From: a virus
IMG/VR virus record: IMGVR_UViG_3300032086_000940
Coordinates: 1-29,049 of that record
Length of the DNA stretch: 29,049 nucleotides
Direction: 5' to 3' (one strand)
Shown: positions 1,972 to 29,049 of the stretch, piece after piece
Layout of the letters: each line of letters begins with the position of its first letter
How positions within the stretch are numbered: position 1 is the stretch's first letter
Position numbers and translations under genes: made by a program
Notes under the pieces: model-generated
Told to the model about the DNA's origin: nothing
The model's input: the letters and a program-made list of their open reading frames with translations, nothing else
Database searches by the model: none

Positions 1972-4900
1972 CTAGTTACGCTTCGGGCCAGTAACCAGCA
2001 GACGCCACCAGCTCTCGAACTCGTCAAACTCGAAGGTGTCTCCGTCGTCCATCAAAACCGACGTTGCTCGCGCCCCGGCGCGTGCCCCGGGAATATGGAG
2101 CATATACCCAGTCGACATAATCAATGACTTGACTAGAGGCGCGTCAACTTCGTTCTGGCCCAGTTGTTTAGACAGATTAGCAAGCTCCTTTATCGGGTTG
2201 CCTGCGGGGGTCGGCTGGTAATTAAAACCAGTTGTGGCTGCGTTGACTGCATCCCGCAAGAAGACCACTCCCCCGGTTGCTTGCCGCAGCAAGGTGCCGG
2301 CAATTTTCTGGTATATCTCGTCGTCGTCGTCTCCCCCAAACAGGTCGTTGAACAGTGCGTCTACTAACAAAGACGGTACGACGGTTAGCCATATTTGAGC
2401 CTTGGCGAACTTGAGCGCTTGTGCCGGGTTCCTGAAACTTGTCTGCTTCCAGAGGTCGGTCTGCATGTTCTGGTACGCGCCAAAGTACGAATAGAACATG
2501 GTGAACATCTTCTTCCAAACAGCCCCCTGCTGGATGTCCGCCATGTTCCTCGGCAGCCCGGAACCTTGCGTCCGCGCAACCATGTTGTCGGCGTAATCCA
2601 CCGCGTTGTCGTGGTTCATACCCTCGTCCTTGGCTTTATCATAAGCCCCTATCCAAGTCGGTATAGAAACAGCCATGTCGAGCTTCTGGATCCCCCAGAA
2701 GCTAGCGGTTACAAGATCATTCTTTAGACTGTCTGTGCCGAGCCACCGGTTTGCCTCGCGCACTTCCCGGTTAAATGTAGCCGACCGGTTCCGCATAAAG
2801 GCGCTGGCTTCCATAACCTCTTGAGCCGCGAGGCCGCGCTGGGTTGCAAATTTTAGCATACCTTTTGCGGCATATTTTTCGCCTATTAGAGCTATGCTGC
2901 TGGTGTACCCGAAAGGCTGCATCAACACGGTACGCACACTGAGGCCCATCTCAGCTATAGAACTACCCGTTCTCAGATATTGGGATATCTTTTCAACCGT
3001 AGTTGTCGGGGGCTTCGACGCAGCGACGGTATGCTCAAGCCAGTTGTTGAACATCCCGTAGAACTCGCTCCCCTTGGCGTCTGTAACAGCCTCAGAGAAC
3101 GGCTTGCTGCGGATAATTCTGGAGGTGTCAGCAACAGCCTCACGCATTTCGATATCGCGGATAACCCCGTCAACGTGTTCAAACAGGACGCGCAAATCGA
3201 GCCAGACAGGTTTATCACCGAAACCTTTGCGCTCTATGGTGCTGCCGTGCTTCGTCGATGTCTTAACTCGGCCCCCGGCCGAGAAGTGCTTTAGGCTGTT
3301 CGAGGCGTCGTAATCCTCCTTGCCCCGTGCGCTGCGGTTAGGATCAGCGACCAGAGGATAATAGCCTCCTTTGATTACTCTGCCGGATGGGAGGGTGAAC
3401 GGGGACGGCGAGACCTTGGCAGGAGACACACCTGTAGTACGTTTTTCGAGTGCGGACAGATCCTCCCAGTAGGTGTCTATGTAGCCCCATATGCTCTCCA
3501 CAACGTCCCAGTCACGGTCGGTCAGGGTGGCCAGAACAGCGTCGATCTGCGCGTCTGTGTACTCCTCCTTTAGAGCGGACACGTTCCCCGGGTTCCCCAT
3601 ATTTAGAGCAAACGCCAAGCGGGCGTTCAGGGACAGGCTGTCGTTAATCTCAGGGATACGCTTTTTCCTGAGGAAGGACAGCCGCTCTTTTCTGGTATAC
3701 GCGGACAGGATATCGTTGATGGCCTTGGCGGCCTTCATACTCCGGTCAATGTATGCGTCGTCGGCTTGCTTTATGCGCTGGAACACCTCGGTGTAAACAG
3801 GGCCGCCGGTCTCGTATCCATCCAGCTCCTCAGACAAGCTGAGGATTGTTCTGTGCTCGGCAAACGCCAGCCTGACGAACCCTGTAAACTTGTCCCACTT
3901 GCCCGCCTCGCGTTTGCGCGGAACTGTCTTTGTCGCGTTGGCGTCGATGCTGTAGCCCATGTTGCGGACCATCTGGTCGAACTGCGCAGTTTCAGCGTCG
4001 GAGTACCGACGGCCCTGGGTTACAAGGCTGCGGGCCGTGTCATGCATACCCTCCAGCTCAACGAACGTGAAGTCCCGCACATTTTGCTTTGTCAGAGCGC
4101 GATCTAGCTCAGGGGATATGTGAAAAGACGCACCGAACTTTTCAGACTGCTGGTCCGCCCACCTCTGCAGAGTTTCGGAAGACAGCGTGGCAAAGCGCCT
4201 CGAGCTCATCTTACCGCTAAAGTTTATGTCCCCCAGGAGGGCTTTGACCTGATCGATATATTCCGGGTGGACTTTCCGTGGGTCGAATTTGCGCCGGCTG
4301 TAGTCAGCCATGCGCGCAATCATCTTGTCCGACTTGGCTCTAAGATCCCGGGCCTGCCTGTACATGTGGAAGTTCAAGAGCTGCTGTGTCTTGAACCTCA
4401 GGGCTGCGTCGATATCGCCGGCAATAACAGCCTCGGCCGCTTTCATGGCAAACCGGCGCTCGGCGTTTAAGTACTTAGTCGGGGAACCGAGCTGCGCGAT
4501 AGTCTTTTCGCGCATAGTGTTTTCTGCTGCTGTCCGGGCAGCTCGATTGCTGACTTGATTAGTGCGCCCCGCTTTCCGGCTCAGCAGTCTCAGCTCATCC
4601 AGTATGATCTGGGCCTGCCGACGGGAGTGGACTTTACTCAAGGCCTCCTCGTGCATCTGGCCAGCGTCCATAAGGTCGCCGTGCTGCTGCAGCATATATT
4701 CTCTGGCCTGCCTGTCGGCGAATTGCCTGGCGGTCAAAAACTTACCGTCCTCGGACTTCGGTAGCTCAGATAGTTCGCGCAGTAACTGGTCAGCAGAAGG
4801 GTATCCAAGATCTTGAGCAGCACGCTCCGGGTTTACCCCATCCCTCGCGAACAGTTGATTTCCGCCAGGGAGGTCGTACCCGTACTCAGCGGCCATCTTC

Positions 4901-7900
4901 TTATTCAGCTTTAGGCGTGCGGGATAAACCTCCGGGAGCGGATCTCCGTTGGGGAGAGCGCTCTGCTGAATTATTGACCGAGCACGCCAGACCGGGTCTT
5001 CATTTAAGGCGTCAAGGATACGCTTGCTCTCGCGGGACAGCTCTTCGTTCCACCACTTAGTGCGCTCTCTGCGGATCTCCGCGAGGGCGGATTGTGTCAA
5101 CTCGTCCTGCTGCGCCTCTCTAGCGGCTTCGTAGTCTGCCTTGTATTGGGTAAACTCCGCCTCAGTCATACCGGCGGCTTCGGCATCCTTGAACATAGGA
5201 GCCATACGCATCTCGTCCCGGACTACAGCGATCTGCTCGTCGGAAGCCAGCAGGCGGTCCATTACGTCGGAGATGTCTTTATTCAGTGCTGCTCTGGGCA
5301 GCGAACCAGTCCTGCTGATGCGGCGATATAGCGTAGTCAGCCACGCAGTAAATTTAGCGAACGCAGACCTGAGTTCCTCGGAAGGGGCTTTACCTTCCCG
5401 GAGGTAGGCTTCGTAAGTCTCCGCCCACCTCTCGTGCTGCTCGCGCCCTATCTCGGCACGCGATCCCACGCCGAGCCATTTGAGCACGGTGGAAAAATCG
5501 TCCTTAATCTGCTGCGGGGCGTCGGCTCCTTCGGCGAACGCGCCCAGCATCTCAAGGTATAGGTGTCCGCTTTCGTGCAGAAAAGTGGATAGGTTCTCCG
5601 CGTCATAGAGGCGGATGATTATGCCTTCGGTGGACCCTATATCAATAGACCCTCGGGCGGTTACGCCTTCTTGCTGCTGGGAGAGGGCTGCCGCTGCGGT
5701 GGAGGTCACTTCGGTCGGTGTGAATTTGGCTACCGTAAGGCCCTGCATGGCGTTGTTGAAGTAGCCTTCGTACCCAGCATCTGAGATAGCGTTTTCGTAA
5801 AGGGTGTTTAGTTTCCCCAAATCATAGAGATGATCTCCATTCGGACGCCGGTGTGTAATAGCCTGATCTTGGACCGTTAACATAAGACCGTCCGGGTCTT
5901 GCTGGTAATCGTAGAGACTGTCTGCGGGAACTTGGGCCTCATAGGATGGCGTACCCGCAGGAAACTCGGAAACGTATCCGCCCTCTTTACCCACCGATAC
6001 GCCGAAGTAGGTACGGTCCACCCAACCCTCGACACTTTTACGAGCCCCCTCATCACCCGCCATCCCGGTACCGTGATAGCTCGGGTCAAGTTGAGTGAGG
6101 CCTTCTGTTTCACTGAAATGCGTCAGAGTAACAGTGCCGTCCTCGTTGACAGGCAAACCATACAGACCTGAGGTTCCTTCGCTCGATACCCACGACGGAA
6201 GCAGGGCCATCTTCTGCTCGGCAAACACCGTGTCCTCAAGACTAGCGGTACGGTTCTGCTCCCCGTATGGGCCGTAGTTCAGCCAGGAGTTCTGTCCGCG
6301 TGTCTCGGTGGTGATCGCCTTAACCGCGTCTCCTGTAAACAGCCGAACATGAGCCTGCCATGCGTTTTCTTCCCCGCGTGCGCGGAAGCCGGCTCCTTCG
6401 AGGCCATGGCCGAAAGCATCGTGAACAGCGCGGAACAGGTCATTAGCAAGAACCTTAATGTTGTTTCCGCTCTGGTCTTTCCATGTAAGACCCGTGTCTT
6501 CCAGCATCATATGCCCGCTGGGGTCGAACGTCTCGCCCGTGCCGTAGCCGGCCAGCGTCGAGTAGACAGCCATAGTCTTGTTATCCCGCAGATCACGCAT
6601 AGCGTTCCACGGGTTCCCATCGTAGGGGTCGCTGTCGTTGTCGAAGAAGGTGAATGTATACCCAGCGTCAATAAGGGCGTCGTACTGGGCTCTGGTCTGG
6701 GTAATCAGGGCCCGGTAAGCGCGACGGACGTCAGGGTTTGTGGGCTCGTGCTTAGCGTCCTCGTAGGCTTGGGCAATGCGCTCAGACCGGCTGGGCGTGA
6801 TGGGCACATAAACCGGCTGACGGGTGTAGCGAATACCCGCCTTTTCTGCGTAAGCCTCGGCTACAGAGACCAGCTCAGGTATAGGCCCAAACTGCTCTCC
6901 GTTTAGCTTCGGGGCACCTGGAAGCGGTTGTAACGGCGCTGCTGATACGCCCTCTTGTCCTGCTCCAAGCTCGCCTCTTCCGACGGCTCCGGCTCGAATA
7001 TCTCTGCCGGGTCTTTCGCCTTCGGTGGCGACATATCTTGCGGGGCTTGCTGTCGGGCTCTTGCCAGCATCTCCGACCGCATCTTGTTGATAGCTGACTG
7101 GAGTTCTGAGGGCATCTTCTAATCCTCTCGATTTAAGTGCGGTTTCTGCAGCACCAGAGAAGTTCTGGCTAACAGCTTTAACGCCGTGGCTTCTGTAGAG
7201 ACGCTGTTCGAAGTACCACAACGCCGCCTGCATGGCGCTGGGGTCAATACCTGCCTGCTCGGCGGCGTCACGAATAAGGCGTTTAATGTGGTTTCGCTCT
7301 TTAGCTCCGCGAACGTCACCAACAAGATCCCCGTCAGGGGTGTCAAGCAAACGACCTACGTACCGGTTGTAACTACGGGCCGCCCAAAGATCAACAGTCA
7401 CAGCGTTCTGGTCGATGCCAACGCTGTTCTGCATAAAGTCGCCGACCTTTGGCCCGAACATGTAAATCCCAAGGGTGGATGACCTTAGATTTAGTTCGCT
7501 GGGGGTATACTGACCTAGACGCGGCTTTTCCACGAACAGACCGCTGTCCCGCCGAATCTCTGCCATCTCCCTTCCGGTGTGCTCTTCTTGCACCCAGCGC
7601 ATAGCCCCTTCAAGACCTTTGGTGTCTATCAGGTACTGCAGGAGCTGTAGCCCTTTGGTGTTAACGCCGAACTTAGCCCCACTGGGCTTGGTAAGATCTA
7701 TACGCCCGGTCTCCTTCCAAGACCGTAAAGCCAGTATGGCGTTTTCCCAGTTAGGCCCCGGCTTTTGTTGCGGGGACAGCAGAGCGGTGGCAGTGAGGAA
7801 AAGATCCCGAAACTGGGGATTAGCCAGCTCTGGGTAGATATACTCCGTCAGGCGGACGGCCTCGGCGATGTCGTCCGTGTACCAGCTATCCCCGCTGTCA

Positions 7901-10668
7901 GGCTGGCGGGACTGCTCGGCATAGTCGGCCAGCAGGCTGTCTAACATAATAGCGTAATCAGCCGGATCTTCTGGGTCCAGAGCGCGGCCGTAAGCGGCCA
8001 TGTGTCGGTCGGTAAAAGCCTTGCCAATATCACGGTTAAGCACACGGCCGCCAGGGCCTGTTCCAACAATAGTAAGAGGCTGTTCTTGCAGCGGCGCTGC
8101 TGATTGGAACAGAAACGTGCCGGCGTCACCGAACTGGGCGTTCTTGGCGAGTACCAGCGGGCCAACCTGTATCACCTCGTCTGCAGACAGAATGGGCTGC
8201 TGGGTCTTCCGGTCGTAGAAGAACGTATGACGCCGGGGGTCATATCCAACCTGCGTCCACGCCGGGTCATTCAACGCGGCGTCGGCGGCGGCCTTCAGCT
8301 CGGCTGGGTCAACGCTTTCCAGCGTGCCGTTGATCTGGGCAAACGGTGCCTTTCCTTTTTCTCCCCGCCCCACCTTACCGGCGGCGGTCTCAGCGGCATC
8401 GCCCGGTTCAGTAAACGTAGCGTTGGTGATGCGGGCAGCGGCCTCGTGTGCTACGGGCTTACCCTGCGGGTTGTGGATCGTCGGAACCCAGACACCCTTC
8501 TGCGTGTACGCCGGGATGTCGAGCCGCAGCCCAACGCCCTGACCCACGAACTCACCACCCTTCCCGAGGCGGCCAACTTTGTTGCTGGCGAGAGCACCCC
8601 GCATCTCGGCGTCTGTAGCGGGCTCAGGGACGCTCTCGTAGGGCAAGACAGGTTTATACTGGTCAACTACAGCCTGATACGCTTCCTGCGTTATACGGCC
8701 CTCTGAGCGGTCTCTGGCGGCCTGTTCCAGCTCAGGGATGCGGGGATCAGCAAAACCCTGCTGCGCCTGCTCCAGCGTAGTCGCTGAGGGTTTAAGGCCA
8801 GCACCGGTTACGCGCTCGATGCGTGGAAGGAAGCGGCGCTGTATCGTCTCTAACGGAACCCCAGTCCTGCGAGCCATCGTGGAGAACACCGCCGCCATCT
8901 GCTGAGCTGCTGCTCTGGCCGCCGCAGGGTCACCGCTAAGCGCGCCGCCAGTCTCCATGAGGCGGCCCTCGATCTCCTGAACCAGTGCATCTGCGGCTGG
9001 CAGGTCGCCCATAGTCTGCTCGACTTCTTTGATGAACTCCTCGCGAGTAGCCATTTCGGTGAGGTCGGCAATTTCCTGAGCTTCGCTCGCGCTGACTTCG
9101 TTGACATCGAAGGAGATATGTTCTGCCAGCTTGTCGATGGTCTCCTTGGGTAAAGACCAGAAGTCTTCCGCTCTAAGGTCAGCCCCGGAACCTGTGGCGC
9201 TCCCGTCCATCAGGTTATCGGGCAGACGGAACAAGTCGGCCTGCTGAGGGGGGAGGCTTTCTACTTCCTGTAAAAGTATGTTGATGCCCTCGTCGGAGAG
9301 GCGGACGCGATCTACGCCATACTCCTCCATCAGGCCAGCCTGATACTCGGCCCAAGCCTCGGGGTCGCGCTCACGCAGATTGCTGTTCAGCCCATTAAGC
9401 TCCCGGAGCTGGTCTGCCCGTCTGCGAGTAACACGCGCCTTCACCGTGGCCTCTACGCTGGCCGTCACACCCCGAACAGACCCGCCTAACCCAGAACCCG
9501 CGACCATGCCGCCTATAGCTTCGTCGACCGCATCAGCTATGTTGAACGGCTTCTTGGTACCAATGGTCTCGCCGCCCTGCTCAATAATCCCCTGAGCGAA
9601 CTCAGTAACACCCTCCTTTACAGCGGCTTTACCCGACGCCTTAGCAACCCCTTTGGCACTTACTTCTTTGAGCGCATCGTCCAGCCCCAGCATCCCCCGA
9701 GCGCCAAGGCGTTCTAGGAAGGCGGACGCCGTAGCCGCAGGCAGAGCATTGATAAAATCACCAAAGGTGGCCTCTGTGCGGCCGTCGTTTTTAGCCCTCT
9801 GTGCGGCTATTTGCTCAGTCCGAGAGGCGGCATAGACGGGCAGGCTAACAATGGCCATCGCCATATCCGGGATGGATATGATCCCTTGCTCAACAATAAA
9901 CGGGAGGACTTTTGTAAGGGCGTCGTCTTTAACATCATCCCAAGAAGTCAGCTTCTCCTCTACGGCTTTAGTAACACCTGCCTTCTCTTTAGCCTTTAGG
10001 GGATCAGCGGCGTAACTTGACGTTTTAGGGGCCGCAGCGTCCCGTAGGCCGAGTGCCTCAGAAATAACATCTCCGACATCCATAATTGCGGTGGCTAGAC
10101 CGGGGCGCTGCTCAGCGCGCTTCCTGTACTCCTCCGCCGCCTCGTCACCGAACAATAGTCCCCTGATATTCTCAGACACATAATCTTGAGGAGCGCTAAG
10201 CCCTTTCGTCACGCGATCCACAACTCGGTTGAAGCCAAAAGTAAAAGCGAGCACCCGACCGTAGGTTGCCTTGCCGATAGCCTCAGACCTGGTAAGGCTA
10301 TCGGCATCATCGTGTGCCATCTTCGCGTTCTCAGGGACCCCAAACCATTTTCTGGCGTAAGGGCTGTCCTTGAGTGAATTCATAAGATCCTGAGCTTTTA
10401 AGGCATTCTGTAAAGCTCCGGTGTCTTGCTCAACAACGGACAGGGGCAGTCCGGTCTTGCGGGAAGCGTCCAGCTTCTGCTTAAACTGATCCGGGTTAAC
10501 AGTGACAGCATCCCGGGTCACTGCCCTTTCCCGGACAGGATCAGTGGACAATCCGTTGAGGTTGACAAAAGCCATAGGCTGCAGAGGCGGCTTAAAAATG
10601 TCGGCCCGCTTTTCCTCTAGGTCGTCAGCGGCTGGTCGTAATCCCGTGAAATCTTTAAACTCCACCAC
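1972..10668 (-). CDS. Giant polyvalent internal virion/ejection protein (metallopeptidase, ART-like and other domains)
   Basis: 2898 residues, in the position of T7 gp16 after gp14- and gp15-like genes, so probably packaged in the head and injected with the DNA (inference). Visible parts: hydrophobic helices near 252-280 and a Gly-rich one near 380-398; a segment with WTQVGYDPRRHTFFYDR (about 780-860); a conserved region about 863-1175 of a type recurrent in large phage proteins (tentatively DUF7178-like); a domain with HDAFGH (1416-1421) and a following ENAWQAH; an ADP-ribosyltransferase-like region about 1510-1655 (HFSE at 1517, TYFG at 1553); a zincin motif HESGH (1698-1702) with downstream HERWAE; charged helices 1830-1900; and a C-terminal 2260-2840 resembling large polyvalent protein-associated domains (LPD38 type), with a hydrophobic segment 2756-2780 followed by DDDDE. 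Start is GTG immediately after the preceding TAA; a second GTG at 10665 is equally possible and better spaced from GAGG. No lysozyme/transglycosylase motif is apparent. Confidence 0.85.
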   Translation of the reverse strand: MVEFKDFTGLRPAADDLEEKRADIFKPPLQPMAFVNLNGLSTDPVRERAVTRDAVTVNPDQFKQKLDASRKTGLPLSVVEQDTGALQNALKAQDLMNSLKDSPYARKWFGVPENAKMAHDDADSLTRSEAIGKATYGRVLAFTFGFNRVVDRVTKGLSAPQDYVSENIRGLLFGDEAAEEYRKRAEQRPGLATAIMDVGDVISEALGLRDAAAPKTSSYAADPLKAKEKAGVTKAVEEKLTSWDDVKDDALTKVLPFIVEQGIISIPDMAMAIVSLPVYAASRTEQIAAQRAKNDGRTEATFGDFINALPAATASAFLERLGARGMLGLDDALKEVSAKGVAKASGKAAVKEGVTEFAQGIIEQGGETIGTKKPFNIADAVDEAIGGMVAGSGLGGSVRGVTASVEATVKARVTRRRADQLRELNGLNSNLRERDPEAWAEYQAGLMEEYGVDRVRLSDEGINILLQEVESLPPQQADLFRLPDNLMDGSATGSGADLRAEDFWSLPKETIDKLAEHISFDVNEVSASEAQEIADLTEMATREEFIKEVEQTMGDLPAADALVQEIEGRLMETGGALSGDPAAARAAAQQMAAVFSTMARRTGVPLETIQRRFLPRIERVTGAGLKPSATTLEQAQQGFADPRIPELEQAARDRSEGRITQEAYQAVVDQYKPVLPYESVPEPATDAEMRGALASNKVGRLGKGGEFVGQGVGLRLDIPAYTQKGVWVPTIHNPQGKPVAHEAAARITNATFTEPGDAAETAAGKVGRGEKGKAPFAQINGTLESVDPAELKAAADAALNDPAWTQVGYDPRRHTFFYDRKTQQPILSADEVIQVGPLVLAKNAQFGDAGTFLFQSAAPLQEQPLTIVGTGPGGRVLNRDIGKAFTDRHMAAYGRALDPEDPADYAIMLDSLLADYAEQSRQPDSGDSWYTDDIAEAVRLTEYIYPELANPQFRDLFLTATALLSPQQKPGPNWENAILALRSWKETGRIDLTKPSGAKFGVNTKGLQLLQYLIDTKGLEGAMRWVQEEHTGREMAEIRRDSGLFVEKPRLGQYTPSELNLRSSTLGIYMFGPKVGDFMQNSVGIDQNAVTVDLWAARSYNRYVGRLLDTPDGDLVGDVRGAKERNHIKRLIRDAAEQAGIDPSAMQAALWYFEQRLYRSHGVKAVSQNFSGAAETALKSRGLEDALRTPVSYQQDAVGDAGKSPTASPARYVATEGERPGRDIRAGAVGRGELGAGQEGVSAAPLQPLPGAPKLNGEQFGPIPELVSVAEAYAEKAGIRYTRQPVYVPITPSRSERIAQAYEDAKHEPTNPDVRRAYRALITQTRAQYDALIDAGYTFTFFDNDSDPYDGNPWNAMRDLRDNKTMAVYSTLAGYGTGETFDPSGHMMLEDTGLTWKDQSGNNIKVLANDLFRAVHDAFGHGLEGAGFRARGEENAWQAHVRLFTGDAVKAITTETRGQNSWLNYGPYGEQNRTASLEDTVFAEQKMALLPSWVSSEGTSGLYGLPVNEDGTVTLTHFSETEGLTQLDPSYHGTGMAGDEGARKSVEGWVDRTYFGVSVGKEGGYVSEFPAGTPSYEAQVPADSLYDYQQDPDGLMLTVQDQAITHRRPNGDHLYDLGKLNTLYENAISDAGYEGYFNNAMQGLTVAKFTPTEVTSTAAAALSQQQEGVTARGSIDIGSTEGIIIRLYDAENLSTFLHESGHLYLEMLGAFAEGADAPQQIKDDFSTVLKWLGVGSRAEIGREQHERWAETYEAYLREGKAPSEELRSAFAKFTAWLTTLYRRISRTGSLPRAALNKDISDVMDRLLASDEQIAVVRDEMRMAPMFKDAEAAGMTEAEFTQYKADYEAAREAQQDELTQSALAEIRRERTKWWNEELSRESKRILDALNEDPVWRARSIIQQSALPNGDPLPEVYPARLKLNKKMAAEYGYDLPGGNQLFARDGVNPERAAQDLGYPSADQLLRELSELPKSEDGKFLTARQFADRQAREYMLQQHGDLMDAGQMHEEALSKVHSRRQAQIILDELRLLSRKAGRTNQVSNRAARTAAENTMREKTIAQLGSPTKYLNAERRFAMKAAEAVIAGDIDAALRFKTQQLLNFHMYRQARDLRAKSDKMIARMADYSRRKFDPRKVHPEYIDQVKALLGDINFSGKMSSRRFATLSSETLQRWADQQSEKFGASFHISPELDRALTKQNVRDFTFVELEGMHDTARSLVTQGRRYSDAETAQFDQMVRNMGYSIDANATKTVPRKREAGKWDKFTGFVRLAFAEHRTILSLSEELDGYETGGPVYTEVFQRIKQADDAYIDRSMKAAKAINDILSAYTRKERLSFLRKKRIPEINDSLSLNARLAFALNMGNPGNVSALKEEYTDAQIDAVLATLTDRDWDVVESIWGYIDTYWEDLSALEKRTTGVSPAKVSPSPFTLPSGRVIKGGYYPLVADPNRSARGKEDYDASNSLKHFSAGGRVKTSTKHGSTIERKGFGDKPVWLDLRVLFEHVDGVIRDIEMREAVADTSRIIRSKPFSEAVTDAKGSEFYGMFNNWLEHTVAASKPPTTTVEKISQYLRTGSSIAEMGLSVRTVLMQPFGYTSSIALIGEKYAAKGMLKFATQRGLAAQEVMEASAFMRNRSATFNREVREANRWLGTDSLKNDLVTASFWGIQKLDMAVSIPTWIGAYDKAKDEGMNHDNAVDYADNMVARTQGSGLPRNMADIQQGAVWKKMFTMFYSYFGAYQNMQTDLWKQTSFRNPAQALKFAKAQIWLTVVPSLLVDALFNDLFGGDDDDEIYQKIAGTLLRQATGGVVFLRDAVNAATTGFNYQPTPAGNPIKELANLSKQLGQNEVDAPLVKSLIMSTGYMLHIPGARAGARATSVLMDDGDTFEFDEFESWWRLLVTGPKRN

Positions 10669-23476: not shown

Positions 23477-24955
23477 CTAATTGACGCGCGCTGAGAAGGG
23501 GTCGTAATCAGCCGTAGTAGCCTGCTGAGTGCCCTGAAACCCCATCCGGGAGGGGTAGACAGGGAAAACGTAAGTAAGCGCCAGGGCGTCTGCTAAGTCC
23601 GGGGAGGGCAAGCCTCGCTTCTTGGCATCCTCCTTACTCTCCAGCTTCAGCTCGTTGCGCAGCGTGTATCCATACTCCAAGCCAGTCAGGTCGCTGACCA
23701 GGTCGGGATTGTCGGGCAGTCGGATGCCGTCCTTGATGGCATCTCGCAAGTTGCCCCACATCTGGGCGCGCAGGTTGGCATAACCAGCCTGGGTAGCCCG
23801 GCTGCCGAAGTTCACCTCGATCACGTCGAGCCCCAACTGCCGACATCGGTCGACAACACCGCCGCCCACGCCGCCGCCGTCGATAAAGATGGCGTCTGGG
23901 GCTAGCTGCCCGGCTAGCTCGGCTATCTTCGAGGCCAGCGTCATAGTATCCACACCTCGGAAAGTGTGAATACCACGGCTCTCGGCATCTCGACCCTGGC
24001 GTAGGTAGATCACGCTCTGGTCGCTGCCGAAGCGAGCCACATCGACCCCCATGACCAGCGGATCGTGCGGCTGCACAGCCACCTCCAGATCGATGCAGCG
24101 GCGCACGTCTGCCGTCGGGATGAGCTGCAGCTCGCCGGCCGACGGGAACTGTCCCAGCACGCGGACCTTCACGAAGTCGCTGTCGATGCCGTAATCCTTG
24201 ATCCACTCGTCGAACAGCCGCTTGTTGGTGATCTTCACGTCTCGGCTGTCGATGTGGCGTCGGGTGTAGCGGTGCCTGAACCTGCCCTGCATGTTCTCGA
24301 AGAACCGGCCCGTGTTCCGCGTCGGGTTGCCAAAGTCAAACGTCATCGGCTCGCCGTCGGTCAAGCCTCCCTCCCGGACCTCGAAGATCTTGTCGGGCAC
24401 GGCGGACGCCTCGTCGAAGATGTAGAACGGCGTAGCCTGGGCAGCGTGCAGGCCAGCGAACGCCTCGCTGTTCTCCTCGCGGCAGGTCTGGGCGTCGACC
24501 CTCCACGTCTCTCGGTGATCGAGGTGGTACATGTTCATCGACCCGCCGCCACTGTTCAGGTGGTACCAGTGCTTCGTGATCCCCAGGTGGTGCCACTTGG
24601 CCAGCTCGGCCCACGTCTTGGTGCGAAGCTGCTCCGACGTGTTCGCCGTCACGATGCCCTTGCTGAACGGCCGGGTGTCCATGATCCATCGGATCAGCCA
24701 CGCGGTCAGGGCAGATTTGCCGATGCCGTGACCGCTGGCCGTCGAGAATTGTATTGGGTCGACCGCCGTCCTGCCGTCAAAGCCTCGACGCCTGACCTCC
24801 TCACCCAGCTCGGTGAGGAAGCCGCGTGCCCAGTCGTCGGGCCCCTCGAAGCCGTCGAGCTGCAGCTCGTTCCACGGGTAGCTGAACAGCACATGACCTA
24901 GCGGGTCGGCGTAAAATTCGGCGATGGCGTCAGCCAGATCAACGTCAGAAGACAT
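23477..24955 (-). CDS. terL: Terminase large subunit
   Basis: 492 residues. Walker A is SGHGIGKS (74-81, Lys80), Walker B is FYIFDEAS (Asp181, Glu182) and the nuclease domain has VMGVDVARFGSD (Asp305), AIFIDGGG (Asp359) and PDLADAL (Asp453/Asp456), the RNase H-like three-acidic-residue centre. The N-terminal AIAEFYADPLGHVLFSYPWN is typical of the GVDVAR-type terminase family. The enzyme pumps DNA into the prohead through the portal and cuts it. ATG at 24955 is preferred over a TTG at 25006, which would overlap the previous gene and add 17 residues. Its small partner is probably encoded upstream. Confidence 0.95.
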   Translation of the reverse strand: MSSDVDLADAIAEFYADPLGHVLFSYPWNELQLDGFEGPDDWARGFLTELGEEVRRRGFDGRTAVDPIQFSTASGHGIGKSALTAWLIRWIMDTRPFSKGIVTANTSEQLRTKTWAELAKWHHLGITKHWYHLNSGGGSMNMYHLDHRETWRVDAQTCREENSEAFAGLHAAQATPFYIFDEASAVPDKIFEVREGGLTDGEPMTFDFGNPTRNTGRFFENMQGRFRHRYTRRHIDSRDVKITNKRLFDEWIKDYGIDSDFVKVRVLGQFPSAGELQLIPTADVRRCIDLEVAVQPHDPLVMGVDVARFGSDQSVIYLRQGRDAESRGIHTFRGVDTMTLASKIAELAGQLAPDAIFIDGGGVGGGVVDRCRQLGLDVIEVNFGSRATQAGYANLRAQMWGNLRDAIKDGIRLPDNPDLVSDLTGLEYGYTLRNELKLESKEDAKKRGLPSPDLADALALTYVFPVYPSRMGFQGTQQATTADYDPFSARVN

Positions 24956-24960
24956 CGGCG

Positions 24961-25242
24961 TCAACACTCTCCGCTGGCCATGCAGGGGATCGAACAGGGA
25001 AGCCAACCCGATCTGTCTGTCCGGATCGCTTTTCCGGTCTCCACAGAGTAGATAAACACCGCCCTGGTCGAGCCTTCCCAGACCAAAATCCGCAAATCAT
25101 CGGGAGAAACACTGCCCAAATCATCGGAGATCCACTGAGCATTGGTGCCAAATGTGTCGAAAATAAAGTCGGGATCAACCGACATGAGCGGAAGGTATAA
25201 CCAGTTCGCAAAAGATGAATCAGGCTCCTCAGATAGGCTCAT
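24961..25242 (-). CDS. Small protein of unknown function upstream of terL
   Basis: 93 residues from ATG at 25242; a second ATG at 25248 is just upstream. No family is recognised. The sequence has a DPDFIFDTFGTNAQWISDDLG segment and an LRILVWEGSTRAVFIYSVETG beta-hairpin-like part, with two Cys near the C-terminus. The start overlaps the end of the preceding gene by 14 bases and the stop is 5 bases before the terL ATG, so it appears to be a genuine member of the operon. An AGGATGAG site lies at suitable distance from 25242. Confidence 0.6.
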   Translation of the reverse strand: MSLSEEPDSSFANWLYLPLMSVDPDFIFDTFGTNAQWISDDLGSVSPDDLRILVWEGSTRAVFIYSVETGKAIRTDRSGWLPCSIPCMASGEC

Positions 25243-25450
25243 ACTCATCCTCAGTGAGGGGATGCGCCACGGGATCGAGACCGCTGCAGGAGTAGTCCGG
25301 GTGGTCCACCGTGATACTTGTGGCCAGCTCTTTAGCGCCACATTTGCGGCATATGCGCATCCTGCCAGACCCAGGGACAGGGTCTCCCCAGTGGTGAGGA
25401 ACAGGGCGAGACATGGGGTGGCCGCCTCTGGCGTAGTCGTCCTGGTTCAT
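25229..25450 (-). CDS. Small putative zinc-binding protein
   Basis: 73 residues from ATG at 25450, which overlaps the previous stop as ATGA; an upstream in-frame start is therefore not needed. C34-x2-C37, His50 and Cys55 could form a small zinc site (ICRKCGAKE...HPDYSC). The N-terminus is Pro/His-rich. No specific function is recognised. Small zinc-ribbon proteins with this look are frequent near phage terminases. Confidence 0.65.
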   Translation of the reverse strand: MNQDDYARGGHPMSRPVPHHWGDPVPGSGRMRICRKCGAKELATSITVDHPDYSCSGLDPVAHPLTEDEYEPI

Positions 25451-25698
25451 GCTGCCGACCTCGAACCCTTGCACTTCCACCGCTTGCGCGACAAGCGCAG
25501 CGGGGAATTAGGATCCCGCGCCGCCTTCGGGTGATCCTTCATCTGGCCGGCGCTGCGAGCGCAGTAGGCATCGCCCTTCGATGTGCCCGGCTTGACCCTC
25601 GGCCCGCCACCCTTAGCCTGCCCGGCTTGTCCGTAGCTGACCTTCTTGCCGCTCGCGGTGATCTTGACGCGGGCCTTGCCCTTCGCCGGTTTAGCCAT
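25447..25698 (-). CDS. Small basic phage protein, conserved GDAYCARS...LSRKRWKC type
   Basis: 83 residues, strongly basic. ITASGKKVSYGQAGQAKGGGPRVKPGTSKGDAYCARSAGQMKDHPKAARDPNSPLRLSRKRWKC matches a small conserved family seen in many phages; its function is not known to me. Two Cys residues (AYCARS and WKCKG) may bind metal. Start is ATG inside ATGGCTAA, overlapping the previous gene by 8 bases. Confidence 0.75.
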   Translation of the reverse strand: MAKPAKGKARVKITASGKKVSYGQAGQAKGGGPRVKPGTSKGDAYCARSAGQMKDHPKAARDPNSPLRLSRKRWKCKGSRSAA

Positions 25699-25861: not shown

Positions 25862-25997
25862 ACTTCACCCGCCTCTTCTTCGACGCCTCGATTGCGCGAC
25901 CCTGCTTCTCGGCCTTGCCCTTGTCGGTGTAAGACTTGCCCGACTTGCCGTATTTGTAAGCGACTTTCCCACCCTTAGTAGTCTTGTGAACAGGCAT
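25854..25997 (-). CDS. Tiny basic protein (47 residues), conserved small phage type
   Basis: A 47-residue frame beginning MPVHKTTKGGKVAYKYGKSG and ending KKRRVKYG. YKYGKSGKSY and KAEKQGRAI resemble a family of tiny phage proteins with a GKxGK...QAxAI pattern; no function is known. The ATG overlaps the stop of the previous gene by one base (TGATG), and its end overlaps the next gene by 8 bases, so translation is chained. Confidence 0.72.
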   Translation of the reverse strand: MPVHKTTKGGKVAYKYGKSGKSYTDKGKAEKQGRAIEASKKRRVKYG

Positions 25998-26299
25998 CAG
26001 TTCTCTCCTACGACGCGCAGCTTTGCAACCCGAGCGCGGCCAGCCTGCAGCCGCTCGGTCAAAGCGTTTACGTCAATGTTGCGGTTCTCGTTTATGTTCT
26101 CGCTAGGCATCACCTTAGCCAGCAATGTGGCAAAGGTGCGCGGCTCGCTGTTGGCCAAAGCGTGCAAATAGTCCACGCCACCAGCCCTCTCAAAGGCTTC
26201 TAGGATAGCAGCCTTCATGTCTCGCGTCGTCTTGTTAGGCGTGCCTTTTTGTCGGCCGCCAGTCTTCTTCCCGTCTTTAGTCGCCATGTCTAAAACCAT
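25997..26299 (-). CDS. DUF5681-like small DNA-binding protein, candidate small terminase subunit
   Basis: 100 residues. GGRQKGTPNKTTRDMKAAILEAFERAGGVDYLHALANSEPRTFATLLAKVMP is a pattern frequent in phages and resembles the DUF5681 type: a basic G-x-PNKTT stretch followed by helices. In this genome it is the best-placed candidate for a small terminase subunit, as no other one precedes terL, but this is inferred from position and size. ATG at 26299 has a weak AGG upstream; MATKDGKK at 26287 is an alternative. Its stop overlaps the next gene by one base. Confidence 0.65.
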   Translation of the reverse strand: MVLDMATKDGKKTGGRQKGTPNKTTRDMKAAILEAFERAGGVDYLHALANSEPRTFATLLAKVMPSENINENRNIDVNALTERLQAGRARVAKLRVVGEN

Positions 26300-26304
26300 C
26301 TAGT

Positions 26305-26634
26305 TTAGACCTGAGATAATAGCCCAGCTCGACGTAACAAGTCGAGCAAGGTCTGCTCCTCCAACAAATAAAGTCGCCTGGATCTGTCTTGCCTGACAAC
26401 CAGCAAGTCAGCGCCGTCCTGATCGAGAGCATCGTACAGAAACTTGAAGCCAGCCTTCTTCCGCTTTGCCTCGACAGTGTAGGGACCCAATTTGATGTCG
26501 CCCTCCAGATCCTCGCCGGCCGCTTTGAACGCGCCACTCCCAAATACTCTCCGGACATCAGCGCCAGCACCTTCCCAGAACAGGACGGTCTCACGCTCCA
26601 GTTCATATCCTCGTTTCTTGTTTCTGTTAGGCAT
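26305..26634 (-). CDS. PDDEXK-type endonuclease, Holliday-junction-resolvase-like
   Basis: 109 residues. Conserved pieces are RGYELERET (Glu11/Glu13), EGDIKL (Asp46) and TVEAKRKK (Glu55-Ala-Lys57), which together make the E...D...ExK centre of the PDDEXK nuclease fold; the order and small size fit Hjc/RusA-unlike archaeal-type resolvases and related phage nucleases. In phage it would resolve branched replication intermediates before packaging, as T7 gp3 does. ATG at 26634 follows GGAGG by 7 bases. It is the first gene after the repeat-rich intergenic region. Confidence 0.8.
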   Translation of the reverse strand: MPNRNKKRGYELERETVLFWEGAGADVRRVFGSGAFKAAGEDLEGDIKLGPYTVEAKRKKAGFKFLYDALDQDGADLLVVRQDRSRRLYLLEEQTLLDLLRRAGLLSQV

Positions 26635-26672
26635 AAGCAAGCCTCCAATGGGGCTTGCATGCCAAAAGCATA

Positions 26673-26686
26673 GCCCCTATAGGGGC
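26673..26686. repeat. 14-bp perfect palindrome GCCCCTATAGGGGC
   Basis: A perfect 14-bp dyad lies at the edge of the octamer cluster, adjoining the first exact copy (26686). It overlaps a candidate -10 box on the minus strand. It may be a dimeric-regulator site or a structure in the leader. Confidence 0.75.
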
Positions 26687-26704
26687 GTGCAAGCGTGCAA
26701 GCAA
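26676..26704 (-). promoter_or_regulatory. Weak candidate promoter for the nuclease/late operon
   Basis: On the minus strand TTGCTT (26699-26704) and TATAGG (26676-26681) are separated by 17 bases, and transcription would start about 35 bases before the nuclease ATG. Both boxes are imperfect, and the -35 lies in an octamer. A phage polymerase promoter or read-through is equally possible. Confidence 0.25.
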
Positions 26705-26851
26705 GTTTTTTCCAGTATTTTCAATCATTTAAGCCAGCTTGCACGCACTTGCATGCCCAACTTGCACGTGCAAGCAGTTTTTCGCAGTTTTCTGCGGGTT
26801 TGAGTGCGTGCAAGTGCCCAACTTGCACGTCAGTCACCGTGCAAGCTGATA

Positions 26852-28996
26852 TCAGTTCTGAGAGCATCTAAAAGTCCACCTCCCCGTCGTCTTTTTGCGC
26901 TCGTCGAAAATCAAAACCACATCCCCGACATTAGTGTTTACCGGCTGCTGGAACATGTCGTACAGCCGCTCCATCAGGCCAGACGGCATCCTGTCTGCGC
27001 TGCTCGGCCACCCAGCGTCGTCCCTCAGACTATCATGCACATCAGACGCAGAGTGCTCTCCATATCCGCAGATGCCGATGATCTGCTCGGCCAGGTGCAG
27101 CGCCAGCACGGCATCCCCGCCCGACACCGACATCGAGTTCAGCGCGTCCTCCCTGCTGCTCAGATGACACACGCCGATCTCGAACCCCTCCGGAAGCTCA
27201 CAGCCCTGCAGCTCATACACAATGGGCTGCAGCGGGCTGCCCTCTCGTATCTTGCCGGTGTCTAGCACGACCCACCGCCCTAGGTTCTGCTCCAGCGTAT
27301 TCCTGCGCCACTCCCTACGGTCATTGCCGCCGGCAGGCATCCAGTTGGCCAACGTGAAGCCACAGTCCAGCGCACTGTAGATGGCACCTGATCCACGCCA
27401 CGCGCTGCTGTCCGCCCTGTACCAGTCGGCATCCTTCGACCGATCCTTCGGGGTGTGGTGGGCGTGCATAACGGCAGCGCCGGTCATAGAGGTAATCAGC
27501 AGGAACGCCTTGGTCAGCATCGCAGCGCTGTTGGCGCTGTTCTCGTCCATCGCGTCGGACAACGTGATGTAGGGGTCGAGGATCACCAACCGAGCGCCGG
27601 TCTTCCGGACCCAACCCACAATCTTAGCGACATTGTCCTCGTCGATTTCAGGCGTGCCTACCTCATTCAGAGCGATCAGTCGCATCATGCCTTCGGTCTT
27701 GCCGCGCACCGAGACCCCAAGGCTGTGGGTCAGCCCCAAGTCGACGGCAGCGGCCTTCAGACGCCTCTTGATGTCGGAGACGTGCTCCTCGTTCGCGATC
27801 CAGAGCGAGGGCTCTGAGCGCTCAGCCCTGGGCAGACCTATTCGCTCAGTGCAGCCGGCGGCCAGCGTGACAGCAAGAGACGCCAGCCACCGCGTCTTGC
27901 CGACGTTCGACGTGCCGCCCAGCGAGGTCAAGCCGCCGGCCGGGATCATTCCCTCAATCAGCCAATCGATGGCCGGCAGCTTTTCCAAGTGCAGGCCCTC
28001 GACCGTGATGGTCTCTATCTCATCAACATCCGCAACGCGAGCCTCGATATCTGCGGCCGTCGTCTCGCGCTGCGGCCCGATAGGGCGCGACGGGGGTACC
28101 TCCATTATTGGGGTCTCCGCCAGCAGCGCCTCAATCACGTCGTCATCGAGGTCTGCCGACATCTTGGATAGAGCGCTGTCCACCAGGCTCTCTATCTTGC
28201 CGTACCGATCCAGCCAGTCATCGTGTCGTCGATGAGCCGGATCTACCGCCTCCGACGCATCCATCAGCGCCTTCAGCAGGGCCACCTGATCGTCGCGGGA
28301 CAGCGGTCTGCCGTCCTTGCGCCGCTCCGTCAACCTCATCGACAGGGTGCGCAGCGCCGGGTACAGATCCTCTGCAGTGCGAATGCGATCAATCAGCTCG
28401 TCGTCGGTCGCATTGTTCCACGACGTAGACGTCAGGTCTCCTGTGCCGCCCTTCTTCACCATAATTGCGCGCAACACATCGAGCGGAAATTTCGAGACCG
28501 GAACGTCGCCAAACACTTCATAGCCTGGCGTGCCTGGCCAGCAGATGTAGCCTGTGCCGCCGGCCTTTACATCGACGCCATCGGCGAGCTGAGCGGGGAA
28601 GCGGATGCCGTCGGCGTGGCGAAAGATAAAGTGCAAGCCCCTCGACCGTGTCGAGTGCGACCGCGTCTCCATCAGCCATCGGTGGTTTTCATCGAGCCAC
28701 TGCTGGACCTGCGGGCCCTTGTGCAAGTCGACATCGACGCACATCAGCCCCGACATCTCGCCCATAGGTACCGCGATCTCCTTGGCCCTGGGGTGCGAGA
28801 ACAGCTCGACCACCCGATCCGGGTCGGTCGTAGCTATCTTATATCCGCCCTGTCCGGTGCCCACCCCAAGCTCTGCGTTGGACCAGGCGGGGACCTTGTC
28901 GCTAGTCGGAAAAACAGGCAGCCCTGAAGCTGCAACGTCAAGTGCCGCCTTGATTAGCGGCCGCTCGTTGTCGTATAAATCATAAGTCGGTGCCAT
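26852..28996 (-). CDS. Primase-polymerase/helicase fusion replication protein
   Basis: 714 residues. The N-terminal part is a Prim-Pol (archaeo-eukaryotic primase) domain: VDVDLHKG (Asp88, Asp90), RGLHFIF (His122) and GVDVKAGGTGYICWPG (142 on). The C-terminal half is a RecA-fold helicase of the RepA/AAA_25 kind: Walker A GGTSNVGKT (360-368, Lys367), Walker B RLVILDP (Asp474), then a HAHHTPKD segment and GSGAIYSALDC. Together they would prime and unwind phage DNA at the fork. An upstream in-frame start at 29047 at the window edge is rejected, because ATG at 28996 has AGGAGA 7 bases upstream. The gene ends beside the octamer-repeat region. The last 120 residues (with SASDVHDSLRDDAGWPSSADRM) look like a winged-helix domain. 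Confidence 0.9.
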   Translation of the reverse strand: MAPTYDLYDNERPLIKAALDVAASGLPVFPTSDKVPAWSNAELGVGTGQGGYKIATTDPDRVVELFSHPRAKEIAVPMGEMSGLMCVDVDLHKGPQVQQWLDENHRWLMETRSHSTRSRGLHFIFRHADGIRFPAQLADGVDVKAGGTGYICWPGTPGYEVFGDVPVSKFPLDVLRAIMVKKGGTGDLTSTSWNNATDDELIDRIRTAEDLYPALRTLSMRLTERRKDGRPLSRDDQVALLKALMDASEAVDPAHRRHDDWLDRYGKIESLVDSALSKMSADLDDDVIEALLAETPIMEVPPSRPIGPQRETTAADIEARVADVDEIETITVEGLHLEKLPAIDWLIEGMIPAGGLTSLGGTSNVGKTRWLASLAVTLAAGCTERIGLPRAERSEPSLWIANEEHVSDIKRRLKAAAVDLGLTHSLGVSVRGKTEGMMRLIALNEVGTPEIDEDNVAKIVGWVRKTGARLVILDPYITLSDAMDENSANSAAMLTKAFLLITSMTGAAVMHAHHTPKDRSKDADWYRADSSAWRGSGAIYSALDCGFTLANWMPAGGNDRREWRRNTLEQNLGRWVVLDTGKIREGSPLQPIVYELQGCELPEGFEIGVCHLSSREDALNSMSVSGGDAVLALHLAEQIIGICGYGEHSASDVHDSLRDDAGWPSSADRMPSGLMERLYDMFQQPVNTNVGDVVLIFDERKKTTGRWTFRCSQN

Positions 28997-29049
28997 ATTT
29001 GGTCTCCTGTCCCAGGCATGCGATAGTCGGGTGTACCCTACCCGCACAT
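28997..29049 (-). other. Upstream region of the replication gene (window edge)
   Basis: 53 bases hold the AGGAGA ribosome-binding site for the primase-helicase. Nothing else can be assigned; the previous gene lies outside. Confidence 0.4.

Follow-up and report, generated by a model that had tools for sequence, protein, structure and literature searches.

A putative iteron replication origin directly downstream of the primase-helicase gene in an uncultured podovirus

Described replication systems and the present locus

The alpha protein of P4 combines a TOPRIM-type primase, a helicase and a C-terminal winged helix in one polypeptide, which binds the origin repeats (PMC4234260). The SaPI origin consists of short iterons located directly downstream of the helicase gene and recognised by the C-terminal domain of the helicase (PMC7581432). 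In pRN1 ORF904 and in its proposed relative from Bordetella phage BIP-1/BPP-1, an archaeo-eukaryotic (AEP) prim-pol, an SF3 helicase and a C-terminal winged helix are joined, and the origin was proposed to lie 3' of the gene, where a large (~100-nt) stem-loop and no iterons are found (PMC4234260). The iterons and small hairpins of the RSF1010 oriV are recognised by a primase (PMC4234260).

The window analysed here is the whole stretch of 29,049 nucleotides of IMGVR_UViG_3300032086_000940, an incomplete viral contig of 29 kb. It is a contig of an epsilon15/BPP-1-like podovirus; its portal was 44% identical to the portals of BPP-1 and epsilon15, and BPP-1-type virion genes matched the window in a similar gene order. 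An array of octamers was found at the 3' end of its primase-helicase gene.

Like P4 alpha, the primase-helicase carries a C-terminal winged helix (seen in a model, with a modest Z of 5.3). However, it has an archaeo-eukaryotic Prim-Pol (by Pfam and by the pRN1 fold) and an AAA_25/RecA-like helicase, and TOPRIM is absent. The helicase of P4 alpha belongs to SF3. P4 also possesses crr as a second repeat region, and none was present within this incomplete window. The position of the iterons directly downstream of the candidate initiator gene is shared with SaPI Rep/ori, with which SCCmec Cch2 was grouped as a similar system. In contrast to SaPI Rep, which contains a DUF927 or a D5/Primase_Cterm helicase, only AAA_25 was detected here; the primase is fused to the RecA-like helicase, the genome is that of a phage rather than an island, and the host differs. 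The AEP Prim-Pol, the winged helix and a candidate origin 3' of the gene are features in common with pRN1 ORF904 and BIP-1/BPP-1, whereas AAA_25 in place of SF3, and dense iterons with short hairpins in place of a large stem-loop, are not. RepA, RepB' and RepC of RSF1010 are three separate proteins, whereas a fused protein is encoded here. Since some defining features of each family are absent, the array was regarded as one of the iteron-origin kind that lies outside the P4, SaPI and pRN1 families. Among the papers covered, literature searches returned no description of this array. The preliminary description went too far in naming no known phage system, as P4 alpha/ori and SaPI Rep/ori share the working principle in outline.

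The array and the neighbouring genes

The array fills the gap between the primase-helicase and nuclease genes. The location of this gap had been given correctly in the preliminary description, but its extent had to be revised, since the downstream gene starts at 26634 and the true gap is therefore 26635-26851. The eight exact and two variant octamers reported in both orientations were all recovered. Exact copies of CGTGCAAG/CTTGCACG numbered eight in the whole window, all within 26686-26845 and none outside the array; dinucleotide shuffles of the window averaged 1.24 copies and never exceeded 4. Five lie on the plus strand: iterons 1 and 2 in tandem (26686-26693 and 26694-26701), iteron 5 (26767-26774), iteron 6 (26807-26814) and iteron 8 (26838-26845). 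Iterons 3 (26738-26745), 4 (26761-26768) and 7 (26822-26829) lie on the minus strand, as do both variants CATGCAAG (26654-26661 and 26748-26755). The palindromic pairing described earlier was found where iterons 4 and 5 overlap and form CTTGCACGTGCAAG. The commonest 7-mer of the array region occurred 8 times, a count equalled in none of 200 shuffles of the region and in none of 321 other windows of the contig.

The AT-rich core was also confirmed. It lies between iteron clusters at 26702-26737, is 69% AT (99.6th percentile of the window) and was considered a candidate unwinding element. A degenerate IHF-like site, TTTCAATCATTTA (26719-26731, plus strand), differs by one mismatch from the consensus WATCAANNNNTTR, the exact form of which is absent from the window. 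Of 26 origin regions, 15 carried this exact consensus, where 0.2 would be expected; because these regions are related, the number of independent cases is below 15.

A short hairpin, GCCCCTATAGGGGC (26673-26686, minus strand), is located at the downstream end of the array. In most relatives the array terminates in a hairpin of this kind, CCCC(C)TAxx(G)GGGG, whatever the iteron word, and base pairing is preserved in the variant CTCCCTACGGGAG of L047 and L048. A second hairpin read from the sequence, GCAAGCCCCATTGGAGGCTTGC (26637-26658, minus strand), contains the ribosome-binding site of the nuclease gene; counterparts of a different sequence were noticed by eye in relatives. For the conserved hairpins, a role in priming, in loading or in ending transcripts is conceivable.

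The array had been placed between replication and late genes, and the gene order agreed with this: on the minus strand, the primase-helicase gene runs down to 26852 and is followed by the genes for the nuclease, the TerS-like protein and the terminase. The primase-helicase gene (26852-29047), whose start may lie past the end of the window, encodes a Prim-Pol N-terminus, an AAA_25/RecA-like helicase and a C-terminal winged helix. The protein matched PF09250 (1.2e-18) and PF13481 (8.3e-28), both above the curated cut-offs, and its full-length model matched the pRN1/NrS-1 prim-pol by Foldseek (E 1.6e-7 to 4e-5). The next gene (26305-26634) encodes a PDDEXK/Hjc-like nuclease of 109 aa, a candidate Holliday-junction resolvase. 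It showed a conserved E..D..ExK pattern and weak matches to Pfam PDDEXK_15 (E 0.0037, below the cut-off) and, in the PDB, to ST1444 (E 0.075). An NCBIfam search gave no match for either the nuclease or the primase-helicase. The TerS-like gene (25997-26299), a putative small terminase, and the large terminase gene (23477-25006; PHROG 2, 4.5e-42) complete the series. A search of the window against Rfam gave no match. None of the 54 pattern matches returned by a genome-database search with the primase-helicase was a relative, so a host or prophage was not identified.

The last ~87 residues of the primase-helicase (residues 645-731; 26855-27115, minus strand) were modelled by AlphaFold2 as a winged helix of the order H-E-H-H-E-E, with a block pLDDT of 85-95. 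The predicted recognition helix is encoded at 26951-26983 and the predicted wing at 26879-26905, both on the minus strand. Foldseek with this domain alone gave no significant match (best E 0.82). A second fold comparison returned winged-helix proteins, with domains 2-3 of RctB on top at the modest Z given above, and most of the best fold matches span the C-terminal winged-helix domain.

Arrays in relatives and the swapped tract

The primase-helicase, the TerS-like protein and the nuclease served as queries in the searches for relatives, which yielded ~100 or more viral contigs. A comparison of the gap had been suggested in the preliminary description, and it was found that the array is kept in place while its word is lineage-specific: close relatives have the same octamer in the same gap, and in more distant ones an array built of another word likewise sits immediately 3' of the primase-helicase gene. 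These words were CAGCAAGC (L016, L019), TATCCAACA (L048, L140), TGTAGCAA (L146), AGCAGAT (L021), AACTCTATC (L160), GTACCGAA (L168, L170), GTACTGAT (L169), CGTCTACC (L175), GACAGATC (L176), GAACAAGT (L049), GAACAAAC (L050), GACATCCC (L158) and ACTTGTGC (L156). In the relatives with these words, no more than 3 of 200 shuffles equalled the top 7-mer count. Across lineages, the words with statistical support numbered at least 12, counted as exact words rather than as independent inventions, because some of them resemble each other. The shuffle test did not support an array at the 7-mer level in L148, L155, L164, L178 and L182, and no clear array adjoined the primase-helicase gene in L161, L162, L165, L166 and L185. 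BPP-1 itself showed only a weak 4-copy cluster of GAGGCAA near bbp27/28, and no comparable array was found in mycobacteriophage Zemanar.

Two contigs bear on the gene to which the arrays belong. The replication protein of L207 shares the Prim-Pol N-terminus (41% over residues 31-336) and differs in the rest; an array of AAGGTGTCAC lies directly after its gene, upstream of the nuclease. In L210, an array of GGTACGAA follows the stop of an upstream gene for which no similarity to the primase-helicase could be detected. These arrays suggest that such repeats belong to the 3' end of the replication gene and not to the nuclease.

Few parts of the primase-helicase are less conserved than its C-terminal ~90 residues. 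When word similarity was compared with windowed protein identity, the correlation peaked in the winged helix, at residues 676-720, but was weak (partial rho 0.25) and was given no weight.

One pair of contigs showed a change of the word within an otherwise similar sequence. The flanks of L168 and L169 are mostly 95-100% identical in DNA, whereas in a tract of ~1.2 kb (L168 2032-3224) the identity falls to 68-93%. This tract comprises the 3' part of the primase-helicase gene and the array, and no other gene. Within the compared parts of the contigs, the nuclease was 100%, TerL 99.6% and the TerS-like protein 96% identical. TACCGA occurs 12 times in L168 and never in L169, TACTGA nine times in L169 and never in L168, and no copies are shared. 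L170 has the word of L168, though it is more distant overall (92% vs 96% identity outside the C-terminus). Ten C-terminal changes set L169 apart from both L168 and L170. Six of them (D683N, A690R, E712D, G713A, K714G and K715G), at which L170 keeps the residues of L168, correspond in the AlphaFold2 model to helix 3, the turn that precedes it and the wing. The tract of this single pair was replaced whole, so that many changes are linked, and by count the clustering of the L169 changes in the C-terminus was not significant within the tract (P = 0.14). The two contigs belong to separate metagenome records, which makes an assembly artefact unlikely, though possible. As the word and the helix and wing residues change together among L168, L169 and L170, the reader of the word is most likely the C-terminal domain.

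The candidate origin and other explanations

Repeats confined to one site, an adjoining AT-rich tract and a candidate initiator gene next door are features of iteron origins that were all found here. The sequences showed the array and where it lies, the retention of an array while the words change, its joint swap with the C-terminus of the candidate initiator and the IHF enrichment. From these, together with the modelled winged helix, it was concluded that the array is probably a replication origin of the iteron type, recognised by the primase-helicase of the phage itself. As to binding, melting, helicase loading and priming, and the part of the hairpins in these, we infer the following. The primase-helicase would bind the octamers through its C-terminal winged helix and assemble at the 3' end of its own gene, with IHF bending helping the assembly in many relatives. 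It would then melt the AT-rich tract between the clusters; the RecA-like helicase ring would be loaded onto the exposed strand, and the Prim-Pol domain would carry out the priming. The GC skew of eight long relatives tracked the gene strand and did not single out the array, and it was uninformative on the origin because gene orientation dominates.

The preliminary description had left the choice between an origin and an operator array. The origin was favoured by the position, the conservation of the array, the joint change of word and C-terminus and the IHF-like site, and the operator received less support. It was considered improbable that a repressor or activator bound to the octamers controls transcription of the downstream nuclease-terminase (late) genes. 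The array does lie directly upstream of these genes on the same strand, a hairpin stands at its end, and initiators often double as regulators; however, a search for promoters of the sigma-70 type found none in the array, and the swapped tract holds the 3' part of the primase-helicase gene alone, while hardly any change was seen in the nuclease, TerS-like and terminase genes. Moreover, the arrays follow the end of the replication gene even where the next gene is RuvC-like.

A pac/cosB-like packaging site, with the small terminase as the binding protein, would fit the nearby terminase genes, the TerS-like gene lying ~340 bp downstream, and pac or cos sites are often found near terS. The TerS-like proteins, however, keep 74-93% identity between lineages whose words are unrelated, and 96% in the pair L168 and L169, in which every copy of the word differs; because of this the TerS-like protein is not likely the reader, and packaging was judged a very unlikely function of the array. 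Least probable of all was a partition or host-factor array or a functionless selfish repeat. Short repeats in clusters may resemble centromeres or be mobile, but no ParA-like gene was recognised nearby, and the words turn over in a concerted way at one position and are not scattered over the genome.

The reading of the array as an origin provides a candidate origin and a testable candidate initiator for a widespread group of uncultured podoviruses, for which no close isolate was found. With at least 12 natural words, matching winged helices and one near-isogenic swap, the recognition code of the initiator could become directly readable, and the natural words could supply orthogonal replication origins. 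We tentatively proposed, as a possibility with the odds against it, that the iteron word is under diversifying selection, and that the winged helix and the array turn over together as one recombining cassette, which would block the use of the origin by co-infecting relatives or satellites. If so, the group would form a family of mutually orthogonal initiator-origin pairs.

Several further observations were made around these loci. In L148, L156 and L157, a RuvC-like protein with a GIDPG motif adjoins the array in place of the PDDEXK nuclease, which suggests that unrelated resolvases were exchanged at the same place. By eye, an HNH-like ORF of the homing-endonuclease type was seen to separate the nuclease gene from the origin region in L039, L041, L044, L045 and L046. 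Also by eye, a ParB-like coding sequence was noticed in L035 upstream of the TerS-like gene, in the position otherwise taken by the nuclease gene, and an apparent fusion of the TerS-like gene to a GIY-YIG-like N-terminus in L021 (6618-7451). The structural region of the window contains a very large ORF of 2898 aa (1972-10668, minus strand). A gene for a small basic protein (25447-25698) showed ~69% DNA identity to Vibrio lentus phages, the replication region of which is otherwise different.
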